Assembly (NCBI GenBank): GCA_018067325.1
Contig: JAGPUU010000027.1
Coordinates: 1 to 12,121 of the forward strand
Source of the DNA: Amphritea sp.
Lineage (GTDB): Bacteria > Pseudomonadota > Gammaproteobacteria > Pseudomonadales > Balneatricaceae
Direction of reading: 5' to 3'
DNA length: 12,121 nucleotides
Numbering within the stretch: the first letter of the stretch is position 1; the number at the start of each line of letters is the position of its first letter. Below, in pieces: positions 1 through 11,670 of this stretch. Both the position numbers and the translations under genes were made by a program. Below the pieces are notes generated by a model. The model did no database searches, was not told the DNA's origin, and was given only the letters and a program-made list of their open reading frames with translations.

Positions 1-335
1 TGCAACGGGCGATGGATGAAACCGAACGTCGTAGAGAAGTACAGGTAATCTATAATAAGAAGCACGGTATTGTACCTGTAGGTATTGTTAAATCTGTTGC
101 CGATATTATGGAAGGAGCATCCGCTATTCCGGGGCGTAAAACCAAAACCGGCCGGAAGGTGGCAGAACCCGTCGCTGAATTTGAGATTGATCCTAAGAAA
201 CTCACCACTGCTGAGTTGGCGAAGACGATGAGCCGCCTGGAAGACAAGATGTATGAATCGGCTAAAAATCTTGAATTTGAAAAAGCAGGCCACTACCGGG
301 ATCAGCTGGAAAAACTTAAGCATAGCGGCTTATGA
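1..335 (+). CDS. uvrB: UvrB, excinuclease ABC subunit B (C-terminal end, partial)
   Basis: This is the last 110 codons of UvrB, the DNA-damage-verifying helicase-like subunit of nucleotide excision repair, which hands the lesion to UvrC. The frame is open from base 3 and the start lies upstream of the window. The first visible residues, QRAMDETERRREVQ, followed by the YNKKHGIVP stretch, match the end of helicase domain 2 of UvrB. After a Lys/Arg-rich linker comes a typical UVR (UvrB/UvrC interaction) motif, about residues 68-103 counted from the Met at base 12, with the hallmark NLEFEKAGHYRDQL. The TGA stop is at 333-335. Its last sense codon is at the same time the stop of the convergent kinase gene. 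Identification is firm; only the extent of the gene is unknown. Confidence 0.95.
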   Translation, partial: QRAMDETERRREVQVIYNKKHGIVPVGIVKSVADIMEGASAIPGRKTKTGRKVAEPVAEFEIDPKKLTTAELAKTMSRLEDKMYESAKNLEFEKAGHYRDQLEKLKHSGL

Positions 336-1280
336 TGTGCCTGCTATAGGCAGGCTAATTTCGAAGCAAGTTCCTTTGCCCTGGGCGCTCTTAACATTAA
401 TAGTGCCATTATGGTCTTTTATAATTCCGTAAACGATCGACAAGCCCATTCCCGTTCCCTGGCCTACGGGCTTTGTAGTGAAAAAAGGGTCAAAAATCTT
501 TTTGCATACCTGTTCATCCATACCGCTGCCGTTATCTTTAATGCGAATAATGATCACATCATCCTGACTGGTGGCGGAGATAAAAATTTGTGGATTCTGG
601 TTATACTCCAGAGCTTGTTTGGCATTTATTAATAGATTGAGAAATACCTGATTTAACTCACCTGGGTTACATTCAACTAAGGGAAGAGAGTCGATCATAC
701 AGTTCACAGCAATACTGTCATTCAGTTCGCTTTGTAGTATTTTTAATGTGCTGTTAAGGCCCGCAGCCAGGTCGGCTTTAACCCGTTCTGATCCCTGACT
801 ATGAGAGAAGTGGCGCAGGTTCTGTACAATATCTCGCAGTCGTATCAGGCCCTCTTCAGTATCCGTAAGTAGTTCTTCCGTATCTTCTTGTATAAATATC
901 AGATCTTGCTCATCCAGTAACGTTTGAAGCTGATCTGATAGTGAAGGGGAGAGGTTTTGTTGCTCCTGCCATTGGCGATTGAGCTTTAATAGCGCGTTGT
1001 ATGAATTAATATAACGGCGCAAACTTTCCATATTGCTTAAAACAAATGCTAGTGGGTTGTTAATCTCATGGGCAATACCCGCTGATAAGGTTCCCAGAGT
1101 AGCCAGTTTTTCATTACGTAACATCAGGCTTTGTTGCTCCTTCAGCCTGTTATTAGTATTTAATAGTTCATTATTGAGTTTGAATAGTTCTCTGGATTTA
1201 TCTTCCAGTAGTTGCTCCGCTTCGCGACGTGCTTTTTTTTCTCTACGGTATGCTTCCTGATAGGCGATATCTTGACTCAT
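330..1280 (-). CDS. Soluble sensor histidine kinase, partner of H-NOX (HnoK-like)
   Basis: This is a 316-residue kinase with no signal peptide or membrane segment, so it is cytoplasmic. Residues 5-60 are strongly charged and heptad-like (coiled coil). The H-box lies around His71 (AGIAHEINNPL), the predicted phosphorylated residue. The ATPase domain has an N-box at 216-223 (NLLINAKQ), a G1 box DNGSGM at 249-254, an F-box FDPFFTTK at 263-270 and a G2 box GQGTGMGLS at 273-281. All catalytic motifs look intact. It has no sensor domain of its own, which fits a kinase whose input comes from a separate protein. The gene starts 11 bp after the H-NOX gene, with the SD GAGGAA, so they form one operon. 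By analogy with HnoK, NO-bound H-NOX should modulate its autophosphorylation. Likely targets are the three divergent receiver proteins. Partner assignment is inference from position. Confidence 0.9.
   Translation of the reverse strand: MSQDIAYQEAYRREKKARREAEQLLEDKSRELFKLNNELLNTNNRLKEQQSLMLRNEKLATLGTLSAGIAHEINNPLAFVLSNMESLRRYINSYNALLKLNRQWQEQQNLSPSLSDQLQTLLDEQDLIFIQEDTEELLTDTEEGLIRLRDIVQNLRHFSHSQGSERVKADLAAGLNSTLKILQSELNDSIAVNCMIDSLPLVECNPGELNQVFLNLLINAKQALEYNQNPQIFISATSQDDVIIIRIKDNGSGMDEQVCKKIFDPFFTTKPVGQGTGMGLSIVYGIIKDHNGTINVKSAQGKGTCFEISLPIAGTS
339..360 (+). terminator. Possible uvrB terminator inside the kinase 3' end
   Basis: Four bases after the uvrB stop, GCCTGC (339-344) pairs perfectly with GCAGGC (350-355) around a 5-base loop, followed by the short T-rich tail TAATTT. 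It lies inside the last codons of the opposing kinase gene, so the sequence does double duty. The U-tract is weak, so termination may be partial. Confidence 0.4.
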
Positions 1281-1291
1281 TTAGTGTTTCC

Positions 1292-1831
1292 TCAAGCCTG
1301 AAATCGGATGATCAAATCACAATGATCATGGCCTTTATGCATACAACGTGGGTGTTCTAAGGTGATGGTTGTTTTGTAGTGTTGCGCTGCACCACGAATC
1401 AGGCCTTCTGCCAGAATACAGAGCTGGCGAGGAGAACGGTATTCCATGAGCAGTGTTTGATCGTCTGTATCAATGCAGTTAAAGGAGGGCAGGTTAGGAT
1501 TTTCATAAAGTTTTCGCACCTCGACATGGATAACTTCATCGACGCTTTTTAAAAAACCGCGAAGCGTGTTTTCCTGTTCAATAAAAATAGGGTAGCGGTC
1601 TGCAAGCTGACTGAACATATATTCACCAAACATTCCGATAACCTCTGAATCCGGCATTTCCAGTTTGGCCGAAACCGCACCAACCAGCACCATTAGGTCT
1701 TCGTCGGGATAGCTCTTTCCAGCGGTATAGATTCCGGCATTACCCAGCTCGGATAAAATGTTGTTCCAGGCCTGCATGCCGCAACGTTGTTCAACCAGCT
1801 CTTCAAGAATATTAAAAATCACACCCTTCAT
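1292..1831 (-). CDS. H-NOX heme nitric oxide sensor
   Basis: This is a heme-based gas sensor of 179 residues, the usual length of stand-alone bacterial H-NOX proteins. I start it at the ATG at 1831-1829 because the family begins MKGxIFN; the frame is open to 1861, but the extra ten residues do not belong to the family, and an AAGG SD lies upstream of 1831. In this numbering the proximal heme ligand is His102 (DEVIHVEV), the heme propionate motif YxSxR is Tyr131-Ser133-Arg135, and the heme-bending residues Ile5 and Pro115 are present. Position 140 is Leu rather than the Tyr that stabilises O2 in obligate-anaerobe homologues, so it should bind NO and not O2. Cys138, His160, Cys163 and Cys171 match the structural zinc site known in Shewanella H-NOX. 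It is the first gene of an operon with the kinase. Confidence 0.95.
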   Translation of the reverse strand: MKGVIFNILEELVEQRCGMQAWNNILSELGNAGIYTAGKSYPDEDLMVLVGAVSAKLEMPDSEVIGMFGEYMFSQLADRYPIFIEQENTLRGFLKSVDEVIHVEVRKLYENPNLPSFNCIDTDDQTLLMEYRSPRQLCILAEGLIRGAAQHYKTTITLEHPRCMHKGHDHCDLIIRFQA

Positions 1832-1843
1832 AAACTTCGCCTT

Positions 1844-1884
1844 CGACATTAAATGTCGCAAATGTCACATATGTCTTAAATGTA
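1844..1884. promoter_or_regulatory. Divergent operator: 15-bp palindrome plus 9-bp-period ATGTC repeats
   Basis: The perfect palindrome CGACATTAAATGTCG spans 1844-1858, 13 bp upstream of the H-NOX ATG. From inside it, ATGTC recurs at 1853, 1862 and 1871, with the variant ATGTA at 1880: four copies with an exact 9-bp period. The block lies between the divergent H-NOX and HTH-receiver genes and overlaps the expected H-NOX leader or RBS region. Directly repeated short sites suit an excisionase-type HTH such as the one encoded next door, so autoregulation by that protein is a reasonable guess. Which protein binds is not shown by the sequence. Confidence 0.5.
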
Positions 1885-1923
1885 GTCTATGCTGAGTCTA
1901 ATGCAAATAAGAGATTGTGTATT

Positions 1924-2505
1924 ATGAAAACTCTTACCAGCGGAGATATCGCTAATTATCTAGATGTGACTCAGAGAACGGTTATCCGTTGGATTAATAG
2001 TGGGAAACTTAAAGGATTTAAACTTCCTGGTCGGGGTAATAATCGAATTCAGACTGTAGATTTTGTTGAATTTCTTAAACAGAACCGGATGCCGATACCC
2101 GATAAATTGCAGGAAGAATTCAGTCCAGCATCAACGAATATCCTACTGATTGATGATGAGCCTGCAGTGCTTAGAGCGATGACCAGAGCATTGAAGTCAT
2201 TGCACCTGAAGATACACAGCGCAGCAGATGGTTTTCATGCAGGGTTGCTTTTAGAGCAGTTAAATCCTGCCATGATTGTGCTGGACCTGAGCATGCCGGG
2301 TATGGATGGGTTTGCTGTCATCAGATACATCAGAGATGAGCAGAAAAATTCTGATATTCGCATATTAGTAGTTTCAGCGTTGGCGGGTCAGCAGTTAGAT
2401 CATGCTTTGGCGATGGGTGCTGATGCCGTTTTGTCTAAGCCTTTTTCTAATGCCCAGCTACGCAAAACTATTTCTGAATGGCAGCATCCAACGGTTGAAA
2501 TATAA
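1924..2505 (+). CDS. HTH-receiver response regulator (excisionase-type DNA-binding domain)
   Basis: This 193-residue response regulator has the unusual order DNA-binding domain first, receiver second. Residues 1-52 form an excisionase/MerR-like HTH (TSGDIANYLDVTQRTVIRWI, then the basic GKLKGFKLPGRGNNR wing). After a short linker, residues 71-187 form a CheY-like receiver with acidic pair Asp77-Asp78, phosphoacceptor Asp121 (VLDLSMPGMDG), switch Ser151 and Lys172, all intact. I start at the ATG at 1924 (SD-like TAAGAGA at 1908-1914) rather than the TTG nine bases upstream. It is divergent from the H-NOX/kinase operon and opens a three-gene receiver operon; the next gene begins 12 bp later. It resembles the HnoC transcription factor of the NO-responsive Hno network by context, though equivalence is inferred. 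Confidence 0.88.
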   Translation: MKTLTSGDIANYLDVTQRTVIRWINSGKLKGFKLPGRGNNRIQTVDFVEFLKQNRMPIPDKLQEEFSPASTNILLIDDEPAVLRAMTRALKSLHLKIHSAADGFHAGLLLEQLNPAMIVLDLSMPGMDGFAVIRYIRDEQKNSDIRILVVSALAGQQLDHALAMGADAVLSKPFSNAQLRKTISEWQHPTVEI

Positions 2506-2517
2506 AAGGGAGTATTT

Positions 2518-3801
2518 ATGGAATATACGGATCGTTCAATACTGTTGGTTGATGATGAGAAGCCGGTACTTAATTCACTGAAGCGGTTACTCAGGCCTTT
2601 GCGCTGCCAGGTGTTAACAGCTGAATCCGCAACCGCGGGGTTGGAACTGCTAGAACAACAGACAGTGGATATTATTATCAGCGATATGCGGATGCCAGAA
2701 ATCGGCGGAGAGGTTTTTTTACAGAAGGTGGCTGAGCGCTGGCCTGAGACTGAGCGAATTATAATTACTGGTTTTTCAGACACTAAGAGCACCATTGATG
2801 CCATTAATAAAGGCAAAGTAAGCCGCTTTCTGATGAAACCCTGGCAGGATGAAGAAGTACTTAAAGTGGTTTGTAAGGGGTTTGAACTGGCCCAGTTGAA
2901 ACAGCAAAACGTATCACTGCAGCAACTGACTGAGAAGAAAAAGAAAGAGCTGGAACAGCTTAATGTTCAATTGGAAGATAAAGTTAAACTGCGCACCGAA
3001 CAACTGGAAGCCAGTAATTTAAAACTGATTTCGAGCTATCGAGCCATGGTTAGAATGTTCTCTGCAATTACCGCCCGCCGTTTGGGGCAGGATAGTCATA
3101 AAGGGAGCCAGCTGAATAGCCTTCTAGTAAGAACAGCAAGACTGACTCCTATAACGGGAAAAGCTTTGAAACAGCTTTATTTTGCCTGGCAGCTTCGTAA
3201 TATTGGCAAGCTTAGTTTTGCGGATGAACTGATTAATCAGGCTTATGTAACGCTTCCGGCTGAAAATCAACGGCAGTTTCAACAACACCCCCTCAGGGCA
3301 CAGGCGGCTACAGTACTGGTTGCTCCTCTGTTTCCTGCGGGTGAAATTATCGTTCAGCATAAAGAATATCTGGATGGCTCGGGTTATCCAAAGGGGCTTA
3401 AAGGGGAACAGATTAGCTACAGTGCGCAGTTGCTTTGCGTCGTTAATGACTATGTAGAGTTGATTTCGGGGCTCTATCAGAAACGCTCTTACAGTAGTCA
3501 TGAAGCGCTTGCGTATTTAAAAGAGTTCGCCGCCGAACGATACAATGCTGAAATTGTTGACCTCTTGTGTTCAGTCGTTGACCAGTTAGTTGCAGAAGGA
3601 GAGGTAGAGCATGAGCGATGCCTGGCGACCAGTGCGCTCATTTCTGGAATGGTGCTCAGCCGAGATCTACTGACGATACAAGATGTTCTGTTGTTGGGAG
3701 CCGGTCAGACGTTGGATAGCTCAGTGATTGCGCGTCTTTCAGAGATGGAGCAGAATCTTGAAGAACAGTTTGAAGTGTTTGTACGGCAGGAGGCTAGTTA
3801 A
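2518..3801 (+). CDS. Receiver-HD-GYP response regulator with degenerate active site (HnoD-like)
   Basis: This 427-residue protein has a receiver at residues 6-120 (acidic Asp12-Asp13, phosphoacceptor Asp56, switch Thr84, Lys107), a charged coiled coil at about 123-170, and an HD-GYP-like domain at about 172-355. Normal HD-GYP enzymes are metal-dependent c-di-GMP phosphodiesterases. Here the HD pair of HDIGK is replaced by Arg227-Asn228 (LRNIGK), the HHE motif reads QHKE (280-283), and the VaD metal Asp is Asn310, while DGSGYP (286-291) is kept. It is therefore very probably inactive as a phosphodiesterase and acts by binding. The closing 365-410 stretch (SGMVLSRDLLT...LLLGAGQ) is a usual HD-GYP tail. 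SD AAGGGAG lies before the ATG. The architecture matches HnoD of Shewanella, a degenerate HD-GYP regulator in the H-NOX network. Confidence 0.9.
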   Translation: MEYTDRSILLVDDEKPVLNSLKRLLRPLRCQVLTAESATAGLELLEQQTVDIIISDMRMPEIGGEVFLQKVAERWPETERIIITGFSDTKSTIDAINKGKVSRFLMKPWQDEEVLKVVCKGFELAQLKQQNVSLQQLTEKKKKELEQLNVQLEDKVKLRTEQLEASNLKLISSYRAMVRMFSAITARRLGQDSHKGSQLNSLLVRTARLTPITGKALKQLYFAWQLRNIGKLSFADELINQAYVTLPAENQRQFQQHPLRAQAATVLVAPLFPAGEIIVQHKEYLDGSGYPKGLKGEQISYSAQLLCVVNDYVELISGLYQKRSYSSHEALAYLKEFAAERYNAEIVDLLCSVVDQLVAEGEVEHERCLATSALISGMVLSRDLLTIQDVLLLGAGQTLDSSVIARLSEMEQNLEEQFEVFVRQEAS

Positions 3802-5151
3802 ATGACAGGGACAATACTATTGATTGATGATGATCCTGCTATTTTACGAGCTTTGAAACGATTACTGCGGCCGAGCGTTGAAAAACTGGGGTTAGAGATT
3901 TTTTCAACTTCAGAAGCGCAAGAAGCATTACAACTGGCGCAGCAGGAAGAACCAGAGCTCATAATATGTGATCAGCGGATGCCAGGGATTCTCGGCACTG
4001 AACTGTTACGAAAAATATCAGATCTGGGTTTGTCAGCGCAGCATTATATCGTTAGTGGTTATGCCGACTTTGATCAGATTACAGAGGCATTTAATCAAGG
4101 GGTTATCCATCAGTTTATTGCTAAGCCCTGGGATGAGCGTCAGCTGTTACATAGTATCGACCAATTGTTCAATATCCAGAAAATGGATGGGCAACCTTTG
4201 AATAGTGATGGCGTATTATTTCATGGCATGCTCAGCCAGGACCCCAAAATGCTGGAGATGTTTCAGCAGCTAACGCGTCTTTCTAATGCTAATGCGCCGA
4301 TAAACCTGTCGGGTGAAACCGGCACAGGTAAAGAGTTGGCGGCACAGGCAATTCATCTTGAAAGCCATCGAAGAGATAAGTCTTTTGTTGCCGTAAATTG
4401 TGCCAATTTTACCGATCAGATGATGGAAGCTGAATTGTTCGGACACAAAAAAGGTGCCTTTACCGGAGCCGTAGAAGATCGGATCGGGTTGTTGCAGGAA
4501 GCCGATGGAGGAACTTTATTCCTTGATGAAGTGACGACATTACCCCTGGCACTACAGGCTAAGTTACTCAGGGTATTGCAGGAACGGCGCTTTCGACCGG
4601 TAGGCGGGAATCATGAGTATAGTTTTGATGTTCAGTTAATATCTGCATCATCGCAGTCTATTCAAGATGCGGTAGCCAGTGGGGCGTTCAGGCCTGATCT
4701 TCAGTATCGTCTTGAGGTTTTGCCGGTACATATACCTCCGCTACGCCAACGGCCGGTTGATATTATTCCGCTGCTACGCTTCTTTCTGAATCAGCTAATG
4801 TTGCCTGAAGAGATAGGCCTTACTGAACGACTGCAGAGTCAGTTGAAAGGGTACTCATGGCCCGGCAACGTACGTCAGTTATATAATGTGGCACAGTACC
4901 TTGCGGCTATGTGTGATAGGCGTGAGACATTAATTGATATAGACCTGCTACCGCAGCATATTATCTGTATAGATTGTCCGGAGCGGCAGGAAGAGTCTGC
5001 TGATCGCCTCAAACCATTGCAGCAGTTAGATGTGACTGAGCTGCAACAATTATTGGATAAACATCAGGGTAACCGTACAGCAACGGCTGAATCTCTTGGA
5101 ATCAGCCGTATGACACTATGGCGTCGTATGAAAGAGCTGGCAGTTAATTGA
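3802..5151 (+). CDS. Sigma-54-dependent response regulator (NtrC family)
   Basis: This 449-residue bacterial enhancer-binding protein has an N-terminal receiver (about 3-120; acidic Asp9-Asp11, phosphoacceptor Asp57, switch Ser85, Lys108), an AAA+ domain (about 138-368) and a Fis-type HTH (about 410-446, GNRTATAESLGISRMTLWRR). Walker A is GETGTGKE (171-178), the sigma-54 contact loop GAFTGA is intact (218-223), Walker B is GGTLFLDE (236-243), and the FRPDLQYRLEVLPVHIPPLRQR-type region carries arginine fingers Arg297 and Arg303. It should remodel sigma-54 RNA polymerase when phosphorylated. The ATG follows directly on the stop of the preceding gene, with AGGAGG at 3788-3793, so translation is probably coupled. 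It ends at a strong terminator. The intergenic region just downstream has repeats and a -24/-12 promoter that make attractive targets. The intact GAFTGA separates it from VpsR-like proteins that lost sigma-54 dependence. Confidence 0.95.
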   Translation: MTGTILLIDDDPAILRALKRLLRPSVEKLGLEIFSTSEAQEALQLAQQEEPELIICDQRMPGILGTELLRKISDLGLSAQHYIVSGYADFDQITEAFNQGVIHQFIAKPWDERQLLHSIDQLFNIQKMDGQPLNSDGVLFHGMLSQDPKMLEMFQQLTRLSNANAPINLSGETGTGKELAAQAIHLESHRRDKSFVAVNCANFTDQMMEAELFGHKKGAFTGAVEDRIGLLQEADGGTLFLDEVTTLPLALQAKLLRVLQERRFRPVGGNHEYSFDVQLISASSQSIQDAVASGAFRPDLQYRLEVLPVHIPPLRQRPVDIIPLLRFFLNQLMLPEEIGLTERLQSQLKGYSWPGNVRQLYNVAQYLAAMCDRRETLIDIDLLPQHIICIDCPERQEESADRLKPLQQLDVTELQQLLDKHQGNRTATAESLGISRMTLWRRMKELAVN

Positions 5152-5170
5152 TTTTTTACTCTCTTTATCG

Positions 5171-5196
5171 AGCCGCCTTATAAGGCGGCTTTTTTG
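5171..5196 (+). terminator. Rho-independent terminator of the receiver operon
   Basis: A perfect 10-bp inverted repeat (AGCCGCCTTA at 5171-5180, TAAGGCGGCT at 5181-5190) is followed by a run of T through 5195. It lies 19 bp after the stop of the sigma-54 regulator. There is no comparable U-tract on the minus strand, so it acts on plus-strand transcripts. Confidence 0.9.
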
Positions 5197-5333: not shown

Positions 5334-5350
5334 TTGGCATAGGTTATGTA
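5334..5350 (+). promoter_or_regulatory. Sigma-54 (-24/-12) type promoter for the surface-structure operon
   Basis: TTGGCATAGGTTATGTA at 5334-5350 fits the sigma-54 consensus YTGGCACGRNNNTTGCW in the essential GG (5336-5337), in the spacing of the -24 and -12 elements, and in the G at 5348. The -12 element reads TG-T rather than TG-C, and the C at position 7 is T, so it is good but not perfect. It predicts a transcript start near 5361, about 60 bp before the subunit ATG. No convincing sigma-70 promoter was seen in the same stretch, although AT-rich -10-like sequence lies around 5296-5306. Confidence 0.55.
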
Positions 5351-5420: not shown

Positions 5421-5870
5421 ATGAAAATGTTTAAAAAAATTCTGCTCGTTACTGTAGTTTCTTCGCTGATTAGTGGCCATGCCTTAGCCACAAATCTGGA
5501 CAGTGATTCCGCCACCGTCAGTATGGCTGTTTCCCAGTATGCCGCTTTAACCGGGCTGGACGATTTTGTTCTGTCTACCACAGATACCGATGGTGCTGCT
5601 GGTGCGGTGTATTCGGGTACTGATTCTTTTAATCTGGAATCAAATGATCAGGTACGAGTCAGCCTCTCAGGTGGTGATCTGAGTAACGGTACAGATTCTG
5701 TTTCTACCAGTTACTCGATGGATGATGGTGGTACTACTTTTGATACCACTGCCGACTCAGTGCACAACGGAACTCACACCGTTGCAGCATCAGCAACACT
5801 TGGCGCTATTTCTGCTCAGAAAGCCGGCGCTTATTCTACGGTCATTACTTTGACTGTCGCAGCGTTGTAA
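5421..5870 (+). CDS. Small secreted Ig/fimbrial-like subunit
   Basis: This 149-residue exported protein has a classic signal peptide (MKMFKKILLVTVVSSLISGHALA, cleavage after about residue 23). The mature part is acidic, rich in Ser, Thr, Asp and Gly, cysteine-free and predicted all-beta; it ends in the AGAYSTVITLTV strand pattern common in fimbrial and Ig-like subunits. Its core motifs TGLDDF (44-49), LESN (72-75) and LGAISAQ (127-133) recur in the N-terminal part of the LruC protein four genes on, so the two share a fold and probably an assembly route. It is the first gene after the sigma-54-like promoter, with SD AGGGGGA, and is followed by a stable hairpin before the chaperone gene. It is probably the major structural subunit of an extracellular fibre or matrix. 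I do not recognise a named family, and the role is inferred. Confidence 0.8.
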   Translation: MKMFKKILLVTVVSSLISGHALATNLDSDSATVSMAVSQYAALTGLDDFVLSTTDTDGAAGAVYSGTDSFNLESNDQVRVSLSGGDLSNGTDSVSTSYSMDDGGTTFDTTADSVHNGTHTVAASATLGAISAQKAGAYSTVITLTVAAL

Positions 5871-5871
5871 G

Positions 5872-5914
5872 AGTGGCCGCAAGGCGGCCTTCGGGTCGCC
5901 ACTACTATATTTTT
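5872..5914 (+). promoter_or_regulatory. Intercistronic hairpin with UUCG loop (possible attenuator or mRNA-stability element)
   Basis: Right after the subunit stop, GGCGGCC (5883-5889) and GGTCGCC (5894-5900) form a 7-bp stem (one G-U) closed by the very stable C(UUCG)G tetraloop. Competing pairings exist: GGCCGC 5875-5880 with GCGGCC 5884-5889, and AGTGGC 5872-5877 with GCCACT 5898-5903. A T-rich stretch follows only after several bases (5908-5914), so any termination is likely partial. This would give more subunit than chaperone and secretin mRNA. Confidence 0.55.
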
Positions 5915-5956
5915 AAATCATTGGTGTAATCAAATGTCGCTTGCAGGGGACCTAGC

Positions 5957-7099
5957 ATGAAATATTTCAGGGCACTACTGATTATATGGTTGTTCTCTGC
6001 GCGAAGTTTTGCTGCAGAATTCGCTGTATCACCGATGATGATAGAGCTAGAAAGTTCTCCCAGAGTAATTGAGAACTTCAGCTTTCAGGTATTTGGAAAA
6101 ACCGCTGGCCAGGTGAAAATAACAGCCTGGGATATGGAGCAGCAGCTTACCGGTCATATGGGGTTTGTAGAGGTTAATGGTGATCAGGAAAAGCTTTCCA
6201 GTTGGGTTCAGCTTGATAATCCAACATTTAGCGTGAAAAAAGATGAGTCGGTGGAAGTGACCGGCAAAGTGACTATCCCGCCCTGGGCCAATGGTAGTTA
6301 TCACACTGCCGTTATGGTTGAAGAAGCCCGTGCGCCGGATGCAAAAGGTGTCGTGGTGAATGTGCGTTATGCCGTCATTCTTAATATACGTGTGGCGGGG
6401 AAAAAGTCGCGGATCAGTTCTAGCTTTAGTGATCTGCGTCTGATTGAGCAGGAGGGTGAGTTTTATATCGCAGGCCGGTTTATTAACAATTCAAACCGGG
6501 ATTATCGGCTCAGTTCAAAAGCACAATTACGCAGTGCTGATAATAAGCTACTGGGGAGGGTGTTACTTAAAACTCAGTCTGCCTGGCAGAGGGGTGATGA
6601 GGCTTCAAGGGTCTTTCCTGGTGCAGAAGTAGAAGTGTTCGGACTGCTGACTAAACCGCTACCTGCTGGGAATTATCAGGCTATGGTGCGTAACCGGTTT
6701 GGTGGTCGACATCAGCCAACCTGGCGCAGCCCGGTTAACGTGACAATTGAGATGGCTAAAGGTATGCAGGGTGATGCTAAACCTTTACCTGAAGGCGTCG
6801 CTCTATTGCGTGATCCGGTACTTAAAGTACGACGTGGCGGTTATGCAACTGCGTCAGTGATGCTGGTTAATAATCAGGATCAGGCGGTTGAAATTCGCTT
6901 TCCTAAGAACGTGGATCAGGGTCTCCTGAGCGAGTACCGATTTACCCCCGCAGTATTAAAGCTGGAGCCCAGTCAGCGGGGTATGGTGATTCTTAACCAA
7001 AAATACAAAGATGAGCGAGATGTACAGCCCGTTAAGTACCTGGCACAGGTAGTAGGAGGTGAACAGGTAGAGTGGCTTGAGATACCGACTCAGTTGTGA
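5957..7099 (+). CDS. Periplasmic chaperone-like multi-Ig-domain protein
   Basis: This 380-residue exported protein has a signal peptide at 1-19/20 (LLIIWLFSARSFA). The mature part reads as three beta-sandwich segments. Segment 1 (about 21-125) has FAVSPMMIEL, SSWVQLDNPTFSV and a KVTIPPWANGSYHTAVMVE strand pattern as in PapD-like/Fn3-like chaperones and DUF916-type surface proteins. Segment 2 covers about 135-265. Segment 3 (about 285-380) starts with DPVLKVRRGGYATASVMLVNN. It is longer than a classic two-domain pilus chaperone of about 230 residues, so it is not a standard PapD. SD AGGGGA is at 5945-5950. The secretin ATG lies 7 bp after its stop. The most likely job is to hold or deliver the small subunit and the LruC protein in the periplasm, but a structural role in the fibre base is possible. 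The family call rests on pattern only. Confidence 0.7.
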   Translation: MKYFRALLIIWLFSARSFAAEFAVSPMMIELESSPRVIENFSFQVFGKTAGQVKITAWDMEQQLTGHMGFVEVNGDQEKLSSWVQLDNPTFSVKKDESVEVTGKVTIPPWANGSYHTAVMVEEARAPDAKGVVVNVRYAVILNIRVAGKKSRISSSFSDLRLIEQEGEFYIAGRFINNSNRDYRLSSKAQLRSADNKLLGRVLLKTQSAWQRGDEASRVFPGAEVEVFGLLTKPLPAGNYQAMVRNRFGGRHQPTWRSPVNVTIEMAKGMQGDAKPLPEGVALLRDPVLKVRRGGYATASVMLVNNQDQAVEIRFPKNVDQGLLSEYRFTPAVLKLEPSQRGMVILNQKYKDERDVQPVKYLAQVVGGEQVEWLEIPTQL

Positions 7100-7106
7100 G
7101 GGTGCA

Positions 7107-8534
7107 ATGATGAACAGAATACAAAAGCATGTGTGGGGCTTGATGATCTGCATATCGTTGTCCGGTTGTATTAACCAGGCCAGCTTACAGCAACACATTG
7201 AGGAAGCGCCTTCTGCTATGTCACAGGCTGAGTTACAAACCAGTCTTAGTCAACGCTTCCAGGATGAAGTGACTTCTGAGCAGAGAGCCGCGTATCGTAT
7301 TAATCGCCAACAGCTCAGTCTGGAAAATAAACAGCAATCGACCGTTTCTGAGAGTCCAAGAGCCCAATGTGTACCGCATCCCCGGGGGATGAAGACAGGT
7401 CATATTCGTAAGTTAGATCTGGCTTTTTTCGAGATGCCCCTACGTGATGCGCTGGTGGAAGTAAGTGTCATGAGTGGTGTGCCTGTCGTGATAGGTGAAA
7501 ATGTTGATGGATTGATCACGGTAAATATTACCGGGGTCAGTTTTGATGATGCCCTTGAAGTGATGTTAAGCGGTGGAGATATCTCATTTCGTAAAATGGA
7601 GCGACATATTTTAGTGGGTAGTGCTCGGCCCGATTCGCCCGTATTTCATAAGTTGGCGATCAGTTGTCACTATCGTCCAAGACACACGAAACCTGCTGAT
7701 TTAGCCGTATCCCTGACCCCCTATTTTCAGCAGTTTATAAGTCTGCACAATGAAGCGGATTACCTGACGATAACCGCAACACCGGACACTCTGCGTAAAA
7801 TTCGGAGTCATCTGGATAATTATGATCGTAAACCGCGCCAGCTATTACTGGAAATGCATATTGTTGAAGTCAGTAGTGACGCAATGGAGCTGCTTGGCGT
7901 CGACTGGAACCGTTACGGACGTGACCCTAATACTTCGATGCTGCGTCGTTTGGGAACAGCTGAATGGGATGGTTACAAGCGAGAATCTGATCCCTCCGTT
8001 TCATCTCTGCTATCACTCGGAGCTTTGCCCATGCGGACGCTTTCAGATTCGTTGAACTTTCTTCGTACTCAGGGACAGGCGCAGGTTAAAGCGATGCCTA
8101 GTATTGTCACTCTGGATGGAAAAGAAGCGATATTCTCGTCTATGAATACGGTATGGCTTCCATTTGTTAACGGTGGGGATACGGGCCGTCGACGAGAGTT
8201 GACCTATGGCGTGAATATGAAAGTAGTCCCTCGGATAGCGGCAGGTGGGCAGATAAAACTTGAAATTATTAATGCTTCAGTAAGTGATTTTACTGAGTCT
8301 GATCAGGGAGTACCTCGAATTATTTCTCATTCAATCTCTAATACTGTGCATGTCCAGGACGGTGATTATTTGGTACTGGGAGGGTTATTACAGAAGAAAT
8401 CCCGGCGGGATGGTGAGGGGATTCCAGGGCTTAAAGATGCACCACTGGTAGGTAATCTGTTTGGTCAGAAACAACAGCTTCTTCAGGAGACAGAAGTCTT
8501 AATAATGATTCGGCCAAAAGTATTGGGCAGTTAA
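7107..8534 (+). CDS. Outer-membrane lipoprotein secretin
   Basis: This 475-residue secretin, short for the family, starts at the ATG at 7107 (or the ATG at 7110, whose spacing to GAGGG is better); the open frame further upstream lies inside the chaperone gene. Residues 7-21 are a lipoprotein signal with lipobox LSGC, lipidated Cys21. An N0/STN domain covers about 102-170 (LDLAFFEMPLRDALVEVS...ITVNITGVSFDDALEVML). One N1-like segment covers about 183-240, and the secretin barrel about 245-473, with the VPxIxxHxISNTVHVxDGDYLVLGGL region and the GIPGLKDAPLVGNLF gate motif at 438-452. Secretins form large ring channels for type II/III secretion, type IV pili and filamentous phage. No ATPase, inner-membrane platform, prepilin or pilotin is nearby. 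The neighbours are a chaperone and beta-rich subunits, so it may act as the exit pore for those (inference). Confidence 0.92.
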   Translation: MMNRIQKHVWGLMICISLSGCINQASLQQHIEEAPSAMSQAELQTSLSQRFQDEVTSEQRAAYRINRQQLSLENKQQSTVSESPRAQCVPHPRGMKTGHIRKLDLAFFEMPLRDALVEVSVMSGVPVVIGENVDGLITVNITGVSFDDALEVMLSGGDISFRKMERHILVGSARPDSPVFHKLAISCHYRPRHTKPADLAVSLTPYFQQFISLHNEADYLTITATPDTLRKIRSHLDNYDRKPRQLLLEMHIVEVSSDAMELLGVDWNRYGRDPNTSMLRRLGTAEWDGYKRESDPSVSSLLSLGALPMRTLSDSLNFLRTQGQAQVKAMPSIVTLDGKEAIFSSMNTVWLPFVNGGDTGRRRELTYGVNMKVVPRIAAGGQIKLEIINASVSDFTESDQGVPRIISHSISNTVHVQDGDYLVLGGLLQKKSRRDGEGIPGLKDAPLVGNLFGQKQQLLQETEVLIMIRPKVLGS

Positions 8535-8551
8535 TCTCAGGAGAGGGAGTG

Positions 8552-9880
8552 ATGAATAGTTCCAGAGCCTTCATAATATTAATGCTGACCTCTTTTTATC
8601 TCTTTGCCGATGGAAGGGGAGGTGTTGCTAATAATCAAAATGTTGATGATCAGGCGTCGGTATGTATGACTATCGGGCAGACTGCTAGCCTGACCGGTCT
8701 TGATGATTTCTTGCTTGCGACGACGGATATCTCAGGTCAGGCGGGAGCTAAATATACTGGAGGAGACCAGTTCTACCTCGAAAGTAACGGTCCGGTTAGG
8801 GTTGAAATACAGTCGGGAGCGTTGAAAAACAGCAATTCAGTACTCATTCCTAAATACCTTTTTGATCTTCAGTCTCCGGTACTGAATACCGCTGCTGAAG
8901 GTGGTCATGGGGCAGAACACCGTATTGATGCAGAAATTATGTTAGGTGCTATTTCAGCGCAGCAGGCGGGTGATTATAGTGGGGAATTGGTATTGGTCGT
9001 TGTGCCTCAGGTTGGGGGTGAGGGTGGCTGTGGCGGGTTCAGCGTTAGCTATCCTGGTATCGCAACTTATGATACCGGCAGTAGTACTGGTCAGTGGGCG
9101 ACGCTGGCATTTGAGGACCTGTATCCTAATCCAGGAGATGCCGATTATAACGATATGGTGCTTCAGTTTCGGGTGCAAGAAAACTATAACGCACAGCAGC
9201 AGCTGGAAACTATCCACCTGGATTTTATTCCGCTAGCGCGGGGGGCTGGTTATAACCATAGGCTCTATTTATCCCTGGATGGCAATCTGGATAGTCGTAA
9301 TGCAACATATAATAGTACTCCCGCCGTAGTGGGTGATGCTTCGGTCAAGGTCACTTACAACAATCTTGACTCAGGGGCTTCGCAAATCTCTTATTACGAT
9401 CAGTCAGACGATGTACTGGTATTCCATAATACCCGGTCAGCGTTATCTGGCTTTGCCAATGTCTATGATAACGGTGAGCTGACTGAGCCCCGTGTAATGA
9501 CATCAATCGATATTAGTCTTACAAACCCTGAACTAAACCCGGCATCACAAGCGCTGGCCGGAGGGGAGTTTAATTATCGGCCTTTCCTTTATGTGATGAA
9601 TACCCGGCTGGATATTGACCTGTTTGAGGTGAACCCTTATGACGGAATGATTGATCAGAATGGCTATCCATTTGGCTTAATGGTTCCCGTTGATTGGCGC
9701 TGGCCTTTGGAGGGGGTCGGTATCGATACCGCGTATCCCTACTTCTCGGAGTATCGGTCCTGGCTAGCTGGTGAAACAGATAATATTTCTGATCAAGCGT
9801 TGCAGTGGTACAACTATCCATTATCTGGAGCGGAAGGAAATCTAATCTGGGGAGGGGGGAGTTTTACCGAAGGCTTATAA
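8552..9880 (+). CDS. LruC-domain surface protein with N-terminal subunit-like domain
   Basis: This 442-residue exported protein starts at the ATG at 8552 (SD GGAGAGGGAG just before; a GTG one codon upstream is less likely). It has a hydrophobic signal at 7-19. Residues 28-152 are a divergent copy of the small subunit in the same operon (TGLDDF 48-53, TTD 57-59, LESN 77-80, LGAISAQ 131-137, AGxYS). After a GGEGGCGG linker comes a LruC domain (about 164-442) with the signature AFEDLYPNPGDADYNDMVLQFRV at 186-208, whose Asp-rich core (DADYND, 196-201) looks like a calcium-type site. Its end, GYPFGLMVPVDWRWPLEGVGIDTAYPYFSEYRSW, is typical of the family. Cys38 and Cys160 flank the first domain. Subunit domain plus large extra domain suggests a fibre tip or cap or an adhesin. 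It is the last gene of the operon. Confidence 0.88.
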   Translation: MNSSRAFIILMLTSFYLFADGRGGVANNQNVDDQASVCMTIGQTASLTGLDDFLLATTDISGQAGAKYTGGDQFYLESNGPVRVEIQSGALKNSNSVLIPKYLFDLQSPVLNTAAEGGHGAEHRIDAEIMLGAISAQQAGDYSGELVLVVVPQVGGEGGCGGFSVSYPGIATYDTGSSTGQWATLAFEDLYPNPGDADYNDMVLQFRVQENYNAQQQLETIHLDFIPLARGAGYNHRLYLSLDGNLDSRNATYNSTPAVVGDASVKVTYNNLDSGASQISYYDQSDDVLVFHNTRSALSGFANVYDNGELTEPRVMTSIDISLTNPELNPASQALAGGEFNYRPFLYVMNTRLDIDLFEVNPYDGMIDQNGYPFGLMVPVDWRWPLEGVGIDTAYPYFSEYRSWLAGETDNISDQALQWYNYPLSGAEGNLIWGGGSFTEGL

Positions 9881-9915: not shown

Positions 9916-9945
9916 AAGCGCCACTAACGAGTAGTGGCGCTTGTA
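9916..9945. terminator. Bidirectional hairpin terminator between the fibre operon and ald
   Basis: AAGCGCCACTA (9916-9926) and TAGTGGCGCTT (9932-9942) form a perfect 11-bp stem with a 5-base loop in the gap between two convergent genes. On the minus strand it is followed by the U-rich TTTCATTTAT, on the plus strand only by TTGTAT, so it is probably better for ald. A second, weak AT palindrome (AACAATA/TATTGTT, 9887-9902) lies just before it. Confidence 0.75.
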
Positions 9946-11415: not shown

Positions 11416-11492
11416 AGGACTATAGCTCAGTTGGTTAGAGCACTTGCTCGACATGCAAGGGGTCGTCAGTTCGAATCTGACTAGTCCTACCA
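11416..11492 (+). tRNA. tRNA-Val(GAC)
   Basis: This is a 77-nt tRNA with encoded CCA (11490-11492). The acceptor stem AGGACTA pairs perfectly with TAGTCCT, with discriminator A at 11489. The D stem is GCTC/GAGC with loop AGTTGGTTA, the anticodon stem CTTGC/GCAAG, the variable loop five bases (GGGTC) and the T stem GTCAG/CTGAC with loop TTCGAAT. The anticodon loop TCGACAT (11448-11454) gives anticodon GAC (11450-11452), valine. Oddly, position 33, just 5' of the anticodon and almost always U, is C here (11449). All stems are perfect, so the gene otherwise looks functional. Confidence 0.92.
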
Positions 11493-11635
11493 AATTTAAA
11501 AGGCCTCGCGAATGCGGGGCTTTTTGCTATCTGGTGCAGTTGATGAGAACTGAAAGTTCGAACCGAGCGTAGCGAGACAACATTGGAGCTTGCGACGATG
11601 GCCCGCAGGGGAATAATCTGACTAGTCCTACCAAA
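11474..11635 (+). repeat. Direct repeat of the tRNA 3' end (21 bp, 141 bp apart)
   Basis: The 21 bases 11474-11494 (T-loop end, T stem, acceptor strand, CCA and two A) recur exactly at 11615-11635. The DNA between holds the first terminator and about 90 bp with GTTCGAAC (11556-11563) and GAGCGTAGCGAG (11566-11577), but no 5' half of a tRNA. It could be a remnant of a second tandem tRNA, a spacer repeat like that of the E. coli tyrT operon, or a scar of site-specific integration. No integrase is nearby. Confidence 0.75.
11501..11525 (+). terminator. tRNA terminator
   Basis: GCCTCGC (11503-11509) pairs with GCGGGGC (11514-11520), one G-U, with loop GAAT and then TTTTT. It lies about 10 bp after the CCA end of the tRNA. 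Confidence 0.85.
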
Positions 11636-11670
11636 ATTTATGTTGATCTCTTTATAAAGACCTCAGTAGC

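Follow-up and report, generated by a model that had tools for sequence, protein, structure and literature searches.

Can a secretin take the place of an usher and serve as the exit for the chaperone-held subunits of a surface fibre? This question is raised by four consecutive genes on a 12,121-nucleotide stretch of DNA from Amphritea sp. (contig JAGPUU010000027.1), referred to here as the window. Secretins are the exits of ATPase-driven machines (type II, type III and type IV systems and filamentous phage), and chaperone-held fibres use ushers. According to the open reading frames of the window, all four genes lie on the forward strand in a single operon, as a preliminary description of this DNA had stated: SUB (5421..5870), a secreted subunit of 149 residues; CHAP (5957..7099), a periplasmic protein of 380 residues with three immunoglobulin-like (Ig-like) domains and the predicted fold of a chaperone resembling the WxL-interacting protein (WxLIP); SEC (7107..8534), a lipoprotein secretin of 475 residues from the ATG at 7107; and LRUC (8549..9880, starting at GTG 8549 or ATG 8552), in which a SUB-like domain is followed by a LruC domain. 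The intergenic gaps are 86 bases between SUB and CHAP, 7 between CHAP and SEC, and 14 between SEC and LRUC. In agreement with the same description, no usher, ATPase, prepilin or inner-membrane platform was found in family scans of the nine window proteins. The interpretation slightly favored here is a chaperone-secretin surface fibre, in which chaperone-held donor-strand subunits would leave through a dedicated SEC. It draws on the gene set and its conservation, the co-inheritance of CHAP and SEC, the predicted folds, the lack of an usher match, and the absence of a spare ATPase in the complete genome G101.

Protein searches at E <=1e-3 returned 49 relatives of CHAP, 146 of SUB and 116 of LRUC. 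Ten CHAP-bearing genomes, several of them incomplete, were compared: G000 (the window's own), G101 (locus L020), G103 (L005/L021), G283 (L006), G190 (L019), G064 (L007/L022), G572 (L008), G573 (L009), G574 (L010) and G575 (L011). The order SUB-CHAP-SEC-LRUC is repeated in seven of the ten (G000, G101, G103, G283, G573, G574 and G575); therefore, the gene set is more than a chance arrangement, and the co-occurrence of the four families in one order, for which the preliminary description had proposed to search, is present. CHAP and SEC are found together in nine of the ten genomes and LRUC in seven. In G572, SEC is followed by the sigma-54 regulator and then by SUB-CHAP, with no LRUC. G190 also lacks LRUC; two secreted proteins (237 and 230 residues) precede its CHAP and SEC, and these have no SUB profile match, so that their subunit label comes from position and appearance alone. 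Only SUB-CHAP is present in G064, where neither a SEC-clade secretin nor LRUC was found in a 96% complete genome. This lone pair, which stands by itself among his genes (L022:3181-4872), reflects either missing sequence or a pair with a different exit.

The CHAP profile (A1) is rare, being matched in 4 of 116 genomes of the family, 2 of 95 sampled genomes of the order, 3 of 369 of the class and, at a laxer limit, 3 of 398 in the phylum sample, two of these weakly. Within the family, the SEC profile (A5) reached 551-739 bits in precisely the four CHAP genomes, the next match being 166 bits. In the class sample, where only four first-look candidates were scored in many genomes, more than 700 bits were reached only in G000 and G283, both with a full CHAP, and the next match had 157. 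The third class match to CHAP (G337, 43.5 bits) comes from a divergent gene, and its 8.7-kb contig contains no secretin. Six class secretins with scores of 131-151 bits were inspected; they adjoin pilMNO-like or prepilin genes, and no CHAP, SUB or LRUC profile match was found in the stretches around them; the labels PilMNO, Tad, platform and prepilin near other secretins are readings of the sequence, not profile results.

The signal of SEC is closed by the lipobox LSGC (recognized by eye), whose cysteine is present in all eight operon secretins, and the protein carries a Secretin domain (PF00263, E 2.3e-34) and a weak STN domain. Besides the lipidated cysteine, C88 and C187 are invariant in the same eight sequences (alignment A5) and perhaps form a disulfide in the N-terminal region. 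By sequence comparison with PDB, PilQ and GspD come first. Matches to the PilQ, GspD and MshL models lie at E 1e-34 to 1e-37, with scores under the class cut-offs (127.5 against 284 bits, 124.7 against 351, and 118.4 against 250, respectively); the SctC cut-off was also not reached. In a tree of 18 secretins, the eight operon secretins, including those of G190 and G572, form one clade (support 99/99) separate from PilQ, GspD, Tad and others, with a long-branch warning and no fixed closest outgroup. The assignment of SEC to a secretin clade of its own, apparently inherited along with CHAP, is thus supported.

An usher (PF00577) was found in none of the ten genomes, several of which are incomplete, and the E. 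coli control was positive. Likewise, no ATPase of the T2SSE family (PF00437) stands near the operon in any of the ten. Such ATPases are present in all ten genomes, remote from the operon: on a shared contig, the nearest lies about 43 kb (G572), 133 kb (G575) or 289 kb (G101) away, and in the others they are on separate contigs. In G101, a complete genome in one contig, the four ATPases score above NCBIfam cut-offs for PilB, GspE and, in two cases, PilT/PilU, and the two secretins other than SEC do so for GspD and PilQ, which by these family assignments leaves no spare ATPase for SEC. As read from the sequence, a third further secretin of the window's own genome belongs to a Tad-type locus that also encodes an ATPase of its own. 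Apart from SEC, G190 contains a single PilQ/HofQ-like secretin and a single ATPase, both under the equivalog cut-offs. Conserved operons containing a type II or type IV ATPase, which the preliminary description had considered together with service to an ordinary pilus encoded elsewhere, were therefore not encountered among the ten loci, and the G101 ATPases all belong to other systems by their cut-offs.

For CHAP, AlphaFold2 predicts three Ig-like domains (mean pLDDT 91), the first two of which match WxLIP and pilus chaperones in structure comparison, and the earlier label of a chaperone-like multi-Ig protein holds. Residues 19-276 of the predicted structure have the two-domain Ig chaperone fold. 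Their fold-match scores with pilus chaperones are 12.6 (CfaA), 11.7 (Caf1M and FimC), 11.3 (CsuC) and 11.1 (PapD), a range into which unrelated PapD-like tandems such as CEP192 also fall, with up to 12.1. The top rows of the Foldseek table are ciliary multi-Ig proteins with poor TM-scores, and the best TM-scores by target (0.58-0.62) belong to WxLIP, of which CHAP qualifies as a homologue. A single-sequence search with CHAP gave no family above its cut-off. It can be seen that WxLIP of Gram-positive bacteria, not the classical pilus chaperones, is the nearest to CHAP. No C-terminal transmembrane helix was found, the modelled chain ending in a beta strand (370-377). Since many relatives of about 270-325 residues (P0029-P0046 range) lack the third Ig-like domain, two such domains would appear to suffice for the main function of CHAP. 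A CHAP-like gene of divergent sequence (WxLIP_PGBD, E 4.2e-5) was also observed with three small subunit-like proteins in a different, usher-less locus (L023:3234-8697), together with a 904-residue protein that has a LysM-like start and a barrel-like end; no secretin was seen there. Small proteins resembling those of this locus are present at L060:8060-9915.

SUB has a Sec-type signal as judged by eye and no prepilin motif on the same inspection, and prepilin families gave no match in the family scans. It shares 58-83% identity with 26 aligned relatives, and its homology to the N-terminal domain of LRUC extends over 122 residues with 47% identity. SUB itself has no Pfam match, and nothing believable was found in PDB by sequence. 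DUF4402 is the commonest weak match among the relatives (17 of 26, best E 0.0069); this family is not named in the open-licence literature searched. SUB contains no tryptophan and hence no W-x-L motif, and 119 of 120 relatives among the matches listed have no cysteine past residue 30. Structure prediction points to a pilin-like fold for the subunit domain. Behind SUB lies a G+C-rich hairpin with a TTCG loop (5883..5900, forward strand, by eye), which was recognized by eye in most loci. The folding energy of the SUB-CHAP gap was not above that of shuffles in the window (z -0.68) and in L005 (0.00), and it was low in L008 (z -5.8), L019 (-3.7) and L022 (-2.5), a mere hint that this hairpin could be a brake keeping SUB in excess.

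LRUC matches the LruC domain model TIGR04456 with 98.7 bits against a cut-off of 36, and DUF4842 with E 8.4e-15. Residues from about 31 to 153 form the SUB-like domain, which the preliminary description had overlooked. The model has a mean pLDDT of 82 with fold matches, and no match to PDB was found by sequence. The mature chain has two cysteines, one (C39) within the N-terminal extension and the other (C161) directly after the SUB-like domain; both are kept in 39 of 43 aligned relatives. A C39-C161 staple would pin the strand in LRUC and make it a terminal unit, with SUB remaining free for strand exchange; LRUC is a candidate tip, cap or adhesin.

In the favored fibre, the operon would be switched on by the sigma-54 activator, and Sec would carry SUB, CHAP and LRUC into the periplasm, where CHAP would lend a beta strand and hold the putatively incomplete Ig-like domain of SUB. 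Subunits, exchanging donor strands through their N-terminal extensions, would join and exit through SEC, a lipoprotein secretin exclusive to the system, with no ATPase or inner-membrane platform; LRUC, with its subunit domain and LruC domain, would occupy the tip or cap or act as an adhesin. Donor-strand exchange, the exit through SEC, the formation of a fibre and the position of LRUC are what we infer. The original proposal that the secretin replaces the usher for chaperone-held subunits is partly supported, by the chaperone fold, the predicted pilin-like fold of the subunit domain, the lack of an usher match in all ten genomes, the CHAP-linked secretin clade and the lack of a linked ATPase. 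It was revised in three respects: the nearest relative of CHAP is WxLIP and not a classical pilus chaperone, LRUC includes a subunit domain and is present in only seven of the ten genomes, and G064 has SUB and CHAP without SEC.

The main rival is a Gram-negative surface complex of the WxL type, in which CHAP remains a permanent structural partner of SUB and LRUC, and SEC displays the complex with no polymer being formed. The closeness of CHAP to WxLIP by both fold and sequence speaks for this explanation, as does a shared cluster plan. In the available part of PMC10599100, the WxL cluster of Gram-positive bacteria comprises a small WxL protein, a large WxL protein sharing its domain, and WxLIP, the closest parallel to the present set as a whole cluster. 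The model given there, in which a strand inserted by WxLIP completes the WxL sandwich, corresponds to the role proposed for CHAP on SUB. In contrast to that cluster, SUB has no WxL motif, CHAP has no transmembrane helix, a secretin is added, the host is Gram-negative and control is by sigma-54; the terms "Gram-negative", "secretin", "pilus" and "chaperone" do not appear in the available part of that source. On balance, this rival is considered unlikely, yet deserving of serious attention. If the system were a secretion route and formed no fibre, SEC would release SUB and LRUC in soluble form or into the matrix; this would suit SEC as the sole obvious anchor in the set, and extracellular strand complementation is reported for the TasA/TapA matrix filaments (PMC10151520). 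However, a dedicated chaperone, the subunit domain of LRUC and its conserved cysteine pair suggest parts that are built to join, and such a route is very improbable.

It is also improbable that SEC serves as an alternative exit for an ordinary type IV pilus or type II system whose genes lie at another locus, with its neighbors riding along. Its secretin domain, its matches to PilQ, GspD and MshL and the T2SSE ATPases of all ten genomes would fit such a role, whereas SEC falls below all of those cut-offs, forms its own clade and travels with CHAP. Moreover, every extension ATPase of G101 is already paired with its own secretin, and six of the next-scoring class secretins adjoin pilMNO-like or prepilin genes without CHAP or SUB. 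This explanation was accordingly rejected as the main one. SEC resembles the secretins of type IV pili, mannose-sensitive haemagglutinin (MSHA) pili and type II secretion in its secretin domain, weak STN domain and lipoprotein signal, and differs in having no linked ATPase, platform or pilMNO. Compared to chaperone-usher pili (archaic Csu, class 5 CFA/I), the set has a dedicated secretin instead of an usher, CHAP has no sequence-level match to pilus-chaperone families among the matches listed, and the large protein has its subunit domain at the N-terminus; the parts are like those that a chaperone-usher system has in the periplasm, combined with a secretin. LRUC differs from the LruC-domain surface proteins (Leptospira LruC, Bacteroides BACOVA_00967) in its fusion to a SUB-like domain and its place in a chaperone-secretin operon. 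Judged by its sequences, the set is neither a chaperone-usher system, as no usher was found, nor a type IV pilus or type II secretion system, because no ATPase is linked and the secretin lies below the class cut-offs. No described counterpart, either LruC-secretin or chaperone-secretin, was found in the open-licence literature searched, preprints excluded, and the set accordingly still appears not to be a described system.

The sigma-54 activator and the sigma-54-like site before the operon were also missed at first. The site, TGGCAT-N5-ATGTA (5335..5350, forward strand), agrees with the consensus at 8 of 11 positions and lies 86 bases 5' of SUB. Similar sites (8-11 of 11 positions) stand 70-98 bases 5' of SUB in all nine SUB loci, against an expectation of about 0.2 sites per 200 bases at a score >=8; the case is less clear for the two G190 subunit-like genes (best 6 and 8). 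A response regulator of the sigma-54-activating type (3802..5151, forward strand; Sigma54_activat E 4.4e-62, Response_reg, HTH_8) is likely the activator of the operon, and a homologue directly precedes SUB or its counterpart in seven of nine related loci (L005, L006, L008, L009, L010, L019 and L020, not L011 and L022) in addition to the window. Because a terminator-like hairpin (5170..5191, forward strand, pattern scan) stands after the regulator, the operon likely begins its own transcript; the terminator scan of the region found 5 against 3.6 expected, so this hairpin is weak by itself. A further terminator-like stem (9916..9942, strand unassigned; pattern scan, minus strand) occupies the interval between LRUC and a convergent alanine-dehydrogenase-like gene.

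Before the sigma-54 regulator, at 330-3801, the window encodes a haem-nitric-oxide-binding protein (HNOB, E 6.8e-42), a histidine kinase, a response regulator with a helix-turn-helix domain and an HD-domain response regulator, the last of which passes the NosR family cut-off (454.7 against 400 bits). The best NCBIfam match of the kinase (330-1280) is T2SS_HK, with 246.8 bits below a cut-off of 450. L020 retains this whole group of genes, and L005, L009 and L010 retain part of it. The position of HNOB, kinase and HD-domain regulator ahead of the sigma-54 regulator suggests that the putative fibre may be under nitric-oxide and cyclic-di-GMP control. A tRNA-Val (11416-11492) was the sole match in the RNA-family search; its 3' end is repeated about 140 bases on, at about 11615-11633 (by eye; region 11416-11640), and this repeat may mark where an element integrated, as a scar or attachment site. 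A mobile-element or phage origin of the operon was rejected, CHAP having no plasmid match and all 64 matches of SEC to phage records being under 60% identity, with none covering more than 80% of its length. A defence system was likewise rejected, with no PADLOC match.

With a little less than even confidence, the set may be taken as a separate class of fibre assembly, in which a WxLIP-type chaperone delivers donor-strand subunits that are polymerized through a dedicated, ATPase-free lipoprotein secretin. If true, the work of the usher can be done by a secretin, and one chaperone-subunit module, paired with different exits, would be common to the WxL clusters of Gram-positive and the chaperone-usher pili of Gram-negative bacteria. 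The set poses the question of whether the energy of folding by itself would let a secretin pass or build a donor-strand fibre, and it also links Gram-positive WxL clusters to Gram-negative pili. Both questions are testable in a culturable marine bacterium.
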